In this document: positions 60,114 to 64,000 of the stretch, in pieces | Layout: each line of letters opens with the position of its first letter | Numbering within the stretch: the stretch's first letter is position 1 | Assembly: GCF_900129815.1 (NCBI RefSeq) | Contig: NZ_FQWX01000003.1 | Span: 62,001 to 126,000 of the forward strand | Direction: 5' to 3' | Length of the DNA: 64,000 nucleotides | From: Asaccharospora irregularis DSM 2635 | GTDB lineage: Bacteria > Bacillota > Clostridia > Peptostreptococcales > Peptostreptococcaceae | Program-made: the position numbers and the translations under genes | The notes under the pieces: model-generated | What the model was told of the DNA's origin: nothing | What the model saw: the letters and a program-made list of their open reading frames with translations, nothing else | Databases searched by the model: none

Positions 60114-61253
60114 TTATTTTCCATAACATCTATCGCATGGATCGAGTTTATTACTTTCTTTTATTGTTCCTGAGAGGATAGTTTTACTTCTAATAAGTGC
60201 ACTACAATCTCTTCTTGAATGATAACTTTTTCCTTTAGGAGTGTAATACACTATTTCATCATTTTGACCACTTTGCTGATTATTAATTTGCTGGTCGTTA
60301 TTTTGAATATCTGAGTTGCTACTTTCTCTTTTACCTGGAGTGTAACTTCCCGCTTTACAGTTTGTTGAGACTCCATCGCCAGTTGAGATAAATATTATAT
60401 CAGAACATTCATCATTTCTATGTACTTCTATTCCTAGTCTTTTTAACTTATCCATGGTCTCTTTATGTGGGTGTCCATAGGAGTTACCCTTTCCTACTTG
60501 AATTACAGCATATTCAGGAGTTGTTTTTTGTAAGAGTTCATCTGTTGAACTACTACGAGAGCCATGATGACCTACTTTTAAAAGGTCTATATCACAAAGT
60601 TTAGGCATAATTTCTTTTTCTGTTCCTGCTTCTGCGTCTCCTGTAAATAATATTTTATCATTTTTATTGGTAAAAAGTAAGACTAAAGATTGTTCATTGG
60701 TTGTACTTCCACCATTAGTGTTTAAAACCTCAAAATAAGAGTTTTCTAAGAAAAATTTATTATTTTCTAGTGGTACACTTGGAGATAGGCCTTTGTCTGA
60801 CAAAGCATTTATAAAGTCTCTATAGCTTTTAGAATCTGCTGATCCATTAGATACGAATGCATTTTCAACCGCAAAGTTTTTTACTACCGCATCTAATCCA
60901 CCTAAATGATCTGCATGTGCATGAGTAGATATAAGATATTTGATATTCTTTACACCCTGATTATTTAAATATCTTACCATAGAAGCTTCATCATCATTGT
61001 CTCCCCCATCTATTAGTGTGAAGGTTTCTCCTTCTTTAATTAGTATTGCATCACTATTTCCTGTATCTATAAAGTGTATTTCAGCGTTATTCAAGCTAGA
61101 AACTTGCGAATTAGAAATACTCTCAGATTCAATGTTTTCTTTTGAGGTAACTTGTTTTGGATTTTCAGTGTTATTACACCCATTTAAAAACAATGAAGTC
61201 GATACCAAAAGTAATGTCAATAAACTTTTAAATTTGGTGATTTTTTTATGCAT
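60114..61253 (-). CDS. ComEC/Rec2-like secreted metallo-beta-lactamase lipoprotein
   Basis: A 379-residue exported protein. A lipobox LNGC follows the signal peptide. The metallo-beta-lactamase domain (about 55-270) shows the metal motif STHAHADHLGG, then LLKVGHHGSRSSS and the late His in SYGHPHKETMDKL. This is the ComEC-type hydrolase domain without its membrane channel. A Gln/Asn-rich linker follows, then a C-terminal Cys domain (YHSRRDCSALIRS, PCDRCYGK), as in other Gram-positive surface nucleases. Nucleic acid or nucleotide may be the substrate. The start at 61253 has GGAGGGAATATTT upstream. Confidence 0.85.
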   Translation of the reverse strand: MHKKITKFKSLLTLLLVSTSLFLNGCNNTENPKQVTSKENIESESISNSQVSSLNNAEIHFIDTGNSDAILIKEGETFTLIDGGDNDDEASMVRYLNNQGVKNIKYLISTHAHADHLGGLDAVVKNFAVENAFVSNGSADSKSYRDFINALSDKGLSPSVPLENNKFFLENSYFEVLNTNGGSTTNEQSLVLLFTNKNDKILFTGDAEAGTEKEIMPKLCDIDLLKVGHHGSRSSSTDELLQKTTPEYAVIQVGKGNSYGHPHKETMDKLKRLGIEVHRNDECSDIIFISTGDGVSTNCKAGSYTPGKRESSNSDIQNNDQQINNQQSGQNDEIVYYTPKGKSYHSRRDCSALIRSKTILSGTIKESNKLDPCDRCYGK

Positions 61254-61358
61254 AAATATTCCCTCCATAACAATATCAATTATATCATCATAGAGGGAAT
61301 ATAACAATTTTTTACCTTTATCTACATTTATTTTAACAAGCTAACATATTTATCTAAT

Positions 61359-61982
61359 TTAGTCTATTTTAATCTCATACTTTATCTCTACTCTTCTAGA
61401 TGCATCTCTATTTACCTCTCCATTACTTTCTTTTATAAGCTCAGCTTGTGATCTCCCAACAGCTATTATGTCTTTTCTTAACTTATCTTTGTATTTATAA
61501 TCTCCTATTTCATCTCCAACCATATACTGTGCAACACTGTATGCTCTTCTTTGAGATAAATCAAGGTTGTATAAATAAGTTCCCACATCGTCTGTATGTC
61601 CTTCTATAACTATTTTGGATATATTTTTACCGTAATCCTTGTAAATAGTTTCTACATACTTAGGGATAAAAGTCTTTAGTATTTCTTTAGCTTCCGGCTT
61701 TAATTCTGAACTATCTACATCAAACATAGTTTTTTCTCCAAATGTTATCTCACCAGTGTTTTTATCTACCTCAACTGGAATTTTATTTTTATCTAGTGTT
61801 TCCTTTACTGAGATATTTACATTTTTGGCTAGGTCCTTTTCAACTGATCCTGCTATACTCTCTGAACTAAATAAAATTAGTATTACAACCATCAACACCG
61901 TTGATATTAAATCTGTAAATGTAGGCCAGAAACCACTTTGTTCAGATTCCTTATTTATAGTTCTTCTATATTTATTAATCAT
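61359..61982 (-). CDS. MotB/ZorB-like stator protein with OmpA domain
   Basis: A 207-residue protein. The N terminus holds one membrane helix, FWPTFTDLISTVLMVVILILF, with Asp 24 in the position of the proton-carrying Asp of MotB and ZorB. After a short linker, the OmpA-type peptidoglycan-binding domain has VIEGHTDDVGTYLYNLDLSQRRAYSVAQYM and NRDASRRVEIKY. It therefore looks like the wall-anchoring half of an ion-driven motor. The gene overlaps the motor partner gene upstream by 8 bases (ATGATTAA). It is shorter than flagellar MotB and lacks other flagellar neighbours. Confidence 0.9.
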   Translation of the reverse strand: MINKYRRTINKESEQSGFWPTFTDLISTVLMVVILILFSSESIAGSVEKDLAKNVNISVKETLDKNKIPVEVDKNTGEITFGEKTMFDVDSSELKPEAKEILKTFIPKYVETIYKDYGKNISKIVIEGHTDDVGTYLYNLDLSQRRAYSVAQYMVGDEIGDYKYKDKLRKDIIAVGRSQAELIKESNGEVNRDASRRVEIKYEIKID

Positions 61983-63285
61983 TTAAATCATCCTCATCTA
62001 TATCTTTTATAATTGAGTATTCTTTTTCTATTTCATAAATTTCTTCATTAGAAGGTACTATATAATTTTTATCTTTTATTGAAGATATACCTGAAGCTTC
62101 TTTATATAAATCAAGGTAATTAAACATCATATCTAGTTTATCCTCTATATCCTTTGATGCATTTGATATTATATTACTAAGATTGTTTAAGTCTTCTTCT
62201 AGGCTTATCTTTCTGTCGTAAATATCTCTTTGGTTATCTATTATATTATCCTCTCTATCCACTAGCTTTAATAGTAAATCCTGTGCACTTCTTTCATATA
62301 ATCCAAAAGTTGCACTTAGATTTCTCATATATTCACTAACTCTATATTGATTTTCTGTTAAATCATAGATTGATTTTGCAGACTCTTTTATATCGAGAAG
62401 AATTTCCTTATTTATATCCTCTTGCTTATCGTAATTCTCAAATAATCTATTAAATTTTATATTTAAAATATTGAATTGTTTATCTAGCTTTCTTATATTT
62501 TGATCAAATGTTTTAATAGAGTTTTGAGATCCTTCTAGTAATCCCTTTAAAACTTCTATTCCACCTATAAATTCCTCGTTAAATTCAGTTAAATCCTTAG
62601 ATATTTTATCAAATCTTTCTATAGCTTCAATAGATTTACTTATCTGTTTTATAGTATTTTTCACTTCTTCTATTTTTGAATCAACACGTTCTGATTTAAC
62701 ATGTGTGACATCTGAAGTTATTAAATTTTCAAGTTTTAGCATAATTTGTACCATTACATGCTCGCAATTATTAATTTTTGTTGAGAAATTTATTATCATT
62801 GAACAAATTATACCAAATATACTAGTCGTGAATGCAGTTTGCATACTACTTATTGTACTTGGTAGAGAGTCTATAATATTTTTAGTATCTACATTTAAGA
62901 GCATCATAGAAAGTCCTACAAATGTACCTAACACCCCTAATAATATACATGTTGAAGATGATCCTTTTATACTTCTTATTTCCTCTATCATAGGCTTATT
63001 TTTATGTCTAAAATCTGAAGCCACCTCTTCAATAAAGGAAGTCATATTAATTTCTAAGTAAGGATTTTCCTGTTGATATACACTGTACTTACTTTTAGCG
63101 TTTATGTATAGTTTGCTATTTTTGTAATTGCTATTTAACTCTATTAACTCGGTATTTATGAAATTGTATAAATTTCTATTTTCTAAAATTCTTACCAACA
63201 TATATAGAGTTATCGCAATTAAAAATATTACTGTTATGGAGTTTGTAAATATTGAACTAATTAAATTAGAACTTATATTACTCAT
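61975..63285 (-). CDS. MotA/TolQ/ZorA-like motor protein with long coiled tail
   Basis: A 436-residue protein. TM1 is about 14-33, TM2 about 111-131 with the family motif GVLGTFVGLSMML, and TM3 about 150-167 with TAFTTSIFGIICSMI. The last 265 residues are charged and helical with heptads (SKSIEAIERFDKISKDLTEFNEEF, YDRKISLEEDLNNLSNII), a long cytoplasmic tail. This layout, TolQ-like channel plus tail, is that of ZorA of Zorya rather than of flagellar MotA. The start at 63285 has AGGGTGATGATA before the ATG. The MotB-like gene follows with an 8-base overlap. No ZorC, ZorD or ZorE is visible. Confidence 0.87.
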   Translation of the reverse strand: MSNISSNLISSIFTNSITVIFLIAITLYMLVRILENRNLYNFINTELIELNSNYKNSKLYINAKSKYSVYQQENPYLEINMTSFIEEVASDFRHKNKPMIEEIRSIKGSSSTCILLGVLGTFVGLSMMLLNVDTKNIIDSLPSTISSMQTAFTTSIFGIICSMIINFSTKINNCEHVMVQIMLKLENLITSDVTHVKSERVDSKIEEVKNTIKQISKSIEAIERFDKISKDLTEFNEEFIGGIEVLKGLLEGSQNSIKTFDQNIRKLDKQFNILNIKFNRLFENYDKQEDINKEILLDIKESAKSIYDLTENQYRVSEYMRNLSATFGLYERSAQDLLLKLVDREDNIIDNQRDIYDRKISLEEDLNNLSNIISNASKDIEDKLDMMFNYLDLYKEASGISSIKDKNYIVPSNEEIYEIEKEYSIIKDIDEDDLND

Positions 63286-63352
63286 TATCATCACCCTGCC
63301 TTATAATTTATTTATCAATAAATTTATATGTACTAGTTGCTAATAAAATACA

Positions 63353-63391
63353 AAATAAAAGTAGCCTAGTTAAATTTAACAGGCTACTTTA
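63353..63391 (-). terminator. Rho-independent terminator (minus strand)
   Basis: Minus-strand AAAGTAGCCT / AGGCTACTTT with a loop of about 13 bases is followed by TATTTT. It ends the RsiV-like gene before the motor genes, so those are a separate transcription unit. Confidence 0.85.
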
Positions 63392-63394
63392 CTT

Positions 63395-64000
63395 TTATTT
63401 TATAGTAATTTCCATATAATCACCAAGTGCATGTTGTATAGGAATTATAAGAGTTAAAGAATTTTTATCTCTATAACTAAATACTTCAGGATATACAAAC
63501 TCTCCATTATTGTTAGAAAAATCGGCTTTTAATAATGAATCTTTTATCCATGCTTCATCCTTTTGTTTTATATAATCCTTTTGTACCTTAGCTAAGTTTT
63601 TATCCTTTGTTTTTAATTCGTACTTATCATCACTTAGTAATACTTGAGTAACTATATCTACATCCTCATAGTCTTTAAGTCTTATTTTAGACTCTTTTTC
63701 TAAGTCTATATTAGTTGTACAAGCAAAGCTAGTCGGATATGCATTGTTTGAATTATTATAATATCCCTTATACAGTATAGATATCATGTTATCATTTAGA
63801 AGTTTTATTTCATAATTAACTTCTAATGTAAAATCTTTAGAATCAGAAGTATAGTGTTTCTTTATATTAGATATGTCATCTTTTATTATAGTGTTTATCT
63901 TTTTACTTTTATCTTTATTATCCTTTAACTCTATTTGAGGATACTTTATTAATATGTCATCCATTTCGTATACCACTTCTTTTACACTCTTATCACTACT
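63395..64000 (-). CDS. RsiV/DUF3298-like extracellular protein, 5' end cut by window edge
   Basis: The open frame continues to the last base of the window, so the N terminus lies outside. At least 201 residues are visible. IKYPQIELKDNKDKSKKINTIIKDDI, FTLEVNYEIKLLNDNMISILYKGYYNNSNNAYPTSFACTTNIDL and FVYPEVFSYRDKNSLTLIIPIQHALGDYMEI match the DUF4163/DUF3298 fold of RsiV and PdaC-like proteins. Some anchor anti-sigma factors or bind lysozyme; without the N terminus this cannot be judged. It ends at the terminator at 63353-63391. Confidence 0.75.
   Translation of the reverse strand, partial: SSDKSVKEVVYEMDDILIKYPQIELKDNKDKSKKINTIIKDDISNIKKHYTSDSKDFTLEVNYEIKLLNDNMISILYKGYYNNSNNAYPTSFACTTNIDLEKESKIRLKDYEDVDIVTQVLLSDDKYELKTKDKNLAKVQKDYIKQKDEAWIKDSLLKADFSNNNGEFVYPEVFSYRDKNSLTLIIPIQHALGDYMEITIK

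Follow-up and report, generated by a model that had tools for sequence, protein, structure and literature searches.

A ZorA/ZorB-like gene pair without Zorya effectors at a conserved chromosomal place in the Peptostreptococcaceae

What might two genes resembling the ZorAB motor of the Zorya anti-phage systems be doing where no Zorya effector accompanies them? The question is raised by Asaccharospora irregularis DSM 2635 (GCF_900129815.1), in which a stretch of 64,000 nucleotides (NZ_FQWX01000003.1, positions 62,001-126,000 of the forward strand, hereafter the window) harbours two overlapping genes, here termed A and B. We consider it rather probable (roughly 0.6) that the pair constitutes a vertically inherited, effector-less ZorAB-type motor of 5:2 composition, anchored to peptidoglycan, with a housekeeping role in the envelope and a partner encoded elsewhere.

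An earlier, sequence-only reading of the window had described an ORF pair with an 8-base overlap, and both ORFs and the overlap were recovered at the positions given in Table 1. Gene A starts with an ATG at 63285 and stops at 61975, and in-frame codons at 63288-63294 provide alternative starts, so that the product would comprise 436-439 aa; the start codon of B is the ATG at 61982. In nearly all orthologues the two genes overlap by 8-26 bases when the longest ORFs are taken. In an AlphaFold model built with 39 homologues (pLDDT 76 on average and about 90 for the membrane core), A has three membrane helices, within residues 16-52, 99-131 and 137-171, and between the first two a small cytoplasmic part with helices at 58-73 and 81-90 and two very short, two-residue strands (93-94 and 97-98). 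The tail is modelled as helices 174-251 and 257-404, followed by an unstructured, low-confidence end (405-436). The long helical tail proposed earlier is thereby retained, while its length is nearer 230 than the 265 residues first suggested. The model of B (pLDDT 81) consists of a single long helix (22-66) and an OmpA fold, and the Pfam OmpA match of 58.3 bits, together with an Asp24 that is invariant across 27 diverse homologues, agrees with the one-helix partner that had been described. The surroundings of the presumed peptidoglycan site, residues H129, T130, D131, R146 and R197, show little or no variation in the same 27 homologues, and G120-T121 and T154-S155 of A are invariant over 39.

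Table 1. Features of the A/B locus, with positions in the window
Feature	Position	Strand	Basis
Promoter-like block 5' of A (TATTTT ... TACATATAAATT)	63321..63353	-	by-eye sequence comparison
Gene A (436 aa), ZorA-type channel protein of the 3-TM MotA/TolQ/ExbB kind, long tail in the cytoplasm	61975..63285	-	ORF, profiles, model
TM1 of A, about residues 15-37	63175..63243	-	AlphaFold model and positive-inside pattern
Channel core of A (TM2 and TM3, residues 99-171); Thr121 and Thr154-Ser155 invariant	62773..62991	-	model, alignment
Helical cytoplasmic tail of A, residues 173-404	62074..62769	-	AlphaFold model, conservation
A/B overlap, 8 bases (translational coupling)	61975..61982	-	ORF coordinates
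Gene B (207 aa), ZorB-type, with one helix and an OmpA-like peptidoglycan-binding domain	61359..61982	-	ORF, profiles, model
Codon of B Asp24, predicted ion-carrying residue	61911..61913	-	invariant in 27 homologues
OmpA-like domain of B, residues 79-207	61362..61748	-	Pfam, AlphaFold model, fold comparison

Profiles and folds of known families place the pair closest to ZorA and ZorB. The strongest profile match was that of the PADLOC ZorB1 profile to B (1.5e-56), while the ZorA2 profile matched A at 5.6e-13 over residues 107-380, tail included. Among the NCBIfam models, those of ZorA matched A best and those of ZorB belonged to the best for B, all of them under the curated cut-offs. By sequence, the closest solved chains were ZorA 8vvi for A (1.4e-4) and ZorB 8qyd for B (2.4e-12), and five ZorA chains ranked first in the Foldseek search with A (8e-5 to 9e-4). 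The best full-length fold match of B was ZorB type II (8vvi_A, Z 18.7 over 196 residues, rmsd 4.7), with which the MotS periplasmic domains tied. The Asp and the GHTD motif lie 105 residues apart in B, as against 106-119 for ZorB I and 140-144 for flagellar MotB. In a tree of 60 B proteins the Peptostreptococcaceae sequences formed one clade (100/100) that joined Bacillaceae and genome G272 (94/96), and the pairs fell inside the ZorB radiation, beside Bacillota Zorya I, with flagellar MotB separate. In the channel-core tree of A, support was 99/98 for a single clade of the stand-alone pairs and 98/88 for one holding nearly all Zorya I, and Zorya II stood apart; the stand-alone clade also included G344, G034 and G014, which the B tree placed elsewhere, and several long branches leave the exact order uncertain. 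Judged from these sequences and models, A and B are both of the ZorAB branch and distinct from flagellar stators. The ZorA/ZorB-like motor pair of the sequence-only reading is supported in this respect, and no profile or structure search placed both proteins clearly inside flagellar MotAB or TolQR.

Some observations nevertheless count against the preferred reading. The Pfam MotA_ExbB match of A (23.3 bits) barely passes the cut-off of 22.9, and A is far under the NCBIfam cut-offs for ZorA. Moreover, in the VIA fold alignment, in which long helices score high in any case, ZorA, TolQ and ExbB were inseparable as matches to A (Z 11-13, with TolQ and ExbB tying with ZorA at about 13). The tie would suit a Gram-positive energy transducer of the TolQR/ExbBD kind, in which the moving part would be extracytoplasmic instead of cytoplasmic, and the 3-TM topology and channel core of A are shared with these systems. 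TolR and ExbD are devoid of an OmpA-type domain, whereas B carries a clear one; further, there is neither an outer membrane nor TolA/TonB, the long cytoplasmic tail of A is as conserved as the channel, and Foldseek and sequence favour ZorA, so that this explanation appears improbable.

An accessory flagellar stator of the MotAB or MotPS type is a still weaker candidate and is already contradicted. Members of the MotAB/PomAB/MotPS group combine an Asp with a peptidoglycan-binding domain as B does, the MotS periplasmic domain is structurally near B, and flagellar MotA is also present in 25 of the 27 holders of the pair within the family. However, the host genome and G051 are without MotA at E<=0.001, and neither a MotA_N protein nor, at E<=1, a second OmpA-type relative of B was found in the host genome. 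The combination expected of a flagellar stator, a MotA_N-domain MotA with a host flagellar motor and a B in the MotB clade, was not found: A has a TolQ-like 3-TM topology and matches PomA less well (Z 8.8 vs 11-13 for ZorA and TolQ), the linker of B is shorter than that of MotB, and flagellar MotB forms a separate clade. The earlier observation that no flagellar gene lies nearby can accordingly be extended, for flagellar MotA, to the whole genome. The pair also bears a likeness to the 'generic ion transporters', non-flagellar MotA homologues with added C-terminal parts whose function is not known. The B subunits of these transporters are without OmpA homology, and Zorya is treated as more distant from them (Puente-Lelievre et al. 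2025, PMC12505986), while the present pair has a clear OmpA domain in B and an affinity to Zorya.

Zorya I and II ZorAB (PDB 8QYD, 8VVN, 8VVI) resemble the pair in several features: a 3-TM MotA/TolQ/ExbB channel subunit with a long helical cytoplasmic tail, a one-helix partner with an ion-carrying Asp and an OmpA-like domain, the gene order A-B, the spacing from the Asp to the peptidoglycan site, and the closest profiles and folds. The pair differs from them in being without ZorC/D, ZorE or another conserved third gene, in its fixed core-genome place and vertical inheritance, and in the separate clade of its A. Effectors were sought by tblastn, with the ZorCD and ZorE proteins of plasmid loci of Zorya I and II as queries, and the controls were positive: ZorD was recovered from five Bacillota loci of Zorya I (L112-L116), and ZorE from L050, L111 and, in truncated form, L049. 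No Zorya effector was detected beside any of 37 stand-alone loci, and neither ZorD nor ZorE at the Peptostreptococcaceae orthologues, at 19 Bacillaceae loci, or in G272 and G344; ZorF/G was covered only through the absence of any conserved neighbour gene. Adjacent ZorCD, ZorE or, within this scope, ZorFG were found neither here nor at the orthologous loci. Genome-wide, ZorE was absent from the host and from 26 of the 27 family holders, and matches to ZorD were confined to the generic SNF2 core, with generic SNF2 helicases but no full-length ZorD in the host. The claim that the pair is without Zorya effectors, previously made for its vicinity, therefore holds for ZorE and full-length ZorD across the genome.

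Some further loci were seen in the course of these searches. A ZorE-like stretch with two in-frame stops in G052 (C1:2431111-2431743), which lies some 1 Mb away from that genome's A/B pair, is probably a decayed, separate Zorya II. In the Peptostreptococcaceae genome G014 (L119, 1-8140), a ZorAB-like pair is followed on the same strand by a gene of 424 aa and one of at least 1571 aa, neither with a PADLOC match; the longer is without a Pfam family and the shorter has one weak, sub-cut-off Pfam match. This is possibly an undescribed Zorya variant. A pair type whose B has a far longer linker, with 189 residues between Asp and GHTD, occurs at L110:6631-8640 and L118:6164-8334, with no Zorya effector found alongside.

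The distribution of the pair is that of a chromosomal gene unit. The host genome (2.62 Mb, 98.9% complete) has a single copy of A, and orthologues (E<1e-100) were found in 27 of 71 Peptostreptococcaceae genomes, including those of Clostridioides difficile, Romboutsia, Paraclostridium and Metaclostridioides, with the pair present in all eight Clostridioides genomes examined. Within 18 holder neighbourhoods it forms a two-gene unit, in 16 of them beside a block of a xerD-like gene and lexA, mostly with acc genes beyond; of the two exceptions, L041 is truncated where its contig ends, and L048 has been relocated, still near acc genes. The survey of homologous loci for a conserved third gene, as proposed with the sequence-only reading, returned none in 20 family neighbourhoods or 19 Bacillaceae loci, where the relatives stand alone as well and A has about 609 aa. 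The neighbouring genes are metabolic or unassigned, an operon for riboflavin with an FMN riboswitch is found a few genes off, and there is no defence island. The pairwise distances of A and B follow those of XerD, LexA, AccA and AccD (Mantel r 0.72-0.95) as the latter follow each other (0.63-0.93). Among Clostridioides lineages dN/dS is about 0.03-0.1 and is lowest in the tail of A (0.025-0.06), and family-wide conservation of tail residues 173-345 is 63-69% vs 67-70% for TM2/TM3. The pair is an old, vertically inherited, single-copy chromosomal unit of the Peptostreptococcaceae with relatives in the Bacillaceae, and the tail of A is under purifying selection. The 27 orthologues, their synteny and the low dN/dS indicate that A and B are not a chance arrangement of ORFs.

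Twelve genomes without an orthologue keep xerD and lexA, adjacent in most and in several with deoD, and at the threshold used no A or B match was found near them. A relic of A lies beside lexA in G023 (L123:6753-7451), where a TM1-like start is fused to the end of the tail and the channel helices and B are missing. Losses such as this one are seen, and only 27 of 54 spore-forming family members have the pair, so that it is dispensable, which counts against the preferred reading.

Absence from some lineages is also what would be expected of dispensable defence genes, and A and B do belong to the Zorya branch, with ZorB1 as the strongest profile. The pair could hence be a reduced anti-phage Zorya, in which either the motor alone suffices, for instance by depolarising the cell, or an effector is encoded elsewhere. 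We regard this as unlikely. In the genome-wide searches above ZorE was missing from the host and from all but one (G052) of the 27 holders, no ZorD match went beyond the SNF2 core, and a patchy, mobile or defence-island distribution was not found; the inheritance is vertical and the place is fixed amid metabolic genes. In E. coli, deleting any single component of Zorya I or II abolishes protection; the Asp of ZorB, the peptidoglycan domain and the tail of ZorA are likewise required (PMC11890865). ZorAB by itself is described as not sufficing (PMC8565338). As the pair is effector-less, vertically inherited and under strong purifying selection, and Zorya protection in E. coli needs every component, a household machine is likelier than a defence system. 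None of the papers searched gives a description of an orphan ZorAB pair in Bacillota, or of Zorya in C. difficile.

Several adjacent genes were considered as partners of the motor. A gene for a ComEC-like secreted lipoprotein of the metallo-beta-lactamase fold (60114-61307) follows B on the same strand and had been named earlier as a conceivable partner. It occupies this position at 6 of 20 loci, those of the window, Clostridioides and Metaclostridioides, but it has a promoter-like site of its own (61307-61279), is missing next to most orthologues and adjoins lexA in G031 (L125), a genome without the pair; there is accordingly very little likelihood that the two work together. On the other side, the gene 5' of A (63395-64000; L031:10395-11120) is lipoprotein-like with a weak PdaC-domain match and is followed by a terminator-like hairpin (63360-63389). 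In G018 a Ser/Thr kinase gene (L048:11429-12433, Pfam 137 bits) starts 40 bases after B, and in Bacillus FJAT-29814 a gene for a weakly kinase-like membrane protein (L069:10222-11982) starts 27 bases after B. A kinase partner was rejected and is kept as a lead only; the kinase orthologue resides in a conserved cluster of its own at another place, whether or not the genome holds the pair, and none of the eight Clostridioides and three Metaclostridioides holders has it.

What the 43 checked holders of the pair have in common is SpoIVA. It is encoded in 27 of 27 family holders vs 27 of the 44 other genomes, the pair is missing from all 17 genomes that lack spoIVA, and SpoIVA is found also in 16 of 16 Bacillaceae holders tested and in G272. 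The association has a one-sided p of 7e-5 per genome and is modest per genus (0.024), with lineages that are not independent, and the link of the pair to spore formers is thus a lead, not proof. The main texts of two papers on the C. difficile sporulation regulon do not mention OmpA or MotA. By eye, variant forms of the promoter-like block 5' of A (Table 1) are seen in most Peptostreptococcaceae orthologues, and in Clostridioides and Metaclostridioides the part resembling a -10 element reads CGTATA. Comparison of the block with spoIVA promoters allowed no assignment to a sporulation sigma factor. About 40-100 bases 5' of A, Bacillaceae orthologues have ATGATT-N11-12-GAATA followed by TATA-like letters, a block common to L071, L073, L076-L078, L080, L084 and L086.

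Taken as an effector-less housekeeping motor, the pair may work as follows. By analogy with homologues, five A subunits would encircle two B helices, ions would pass at Asp24 of B and a Thr/Ser ring of A, the OmpA-like domain would bind peptidoglycan and so anchor the motor, and the assembly would rotate. The tails of A would bundle into a cytoplasmic rod. The cell wall may set the torque or conformational change, which the conserved tail would then hand on to the partner encoded elsewhere; that the tail carries a signal, as first proposed from the sequence, fits with its strong conservation. The most likely role, at the level of a guess, is a housekeeping one in the envelope of spore-forming Bacillota. 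A household job is probable in view of the fixed chromosomal place across many spore formers, C. difficile included, while its nature, the partner and any link to sporulation are guesses.

A broader and more tentative proposal is that the pair represents a third branch of the ZorAB motors, one without effectors. It would be part of the core genome of endospore-forming Bacillota, a rotary machine anchored to the wall whose task is not immune and may lie in sporulation or envelope growth. In the literature examined, ZorAB-type motors are described solely as the membrane part of Zorya defence systems. A conserved, effector-less and vertically inherited version would extend the use of such motors to ordinary cell biology, and if the proposal of a third branch is true, Zorya defence would be a single specialisation within a wider family of motors. 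Automatic defence finders may flag the pair as a partial Zorya in C. difficile and its relatives. For the study of these motors, the pair would be a simple system of two genes for probing the function of the tail.
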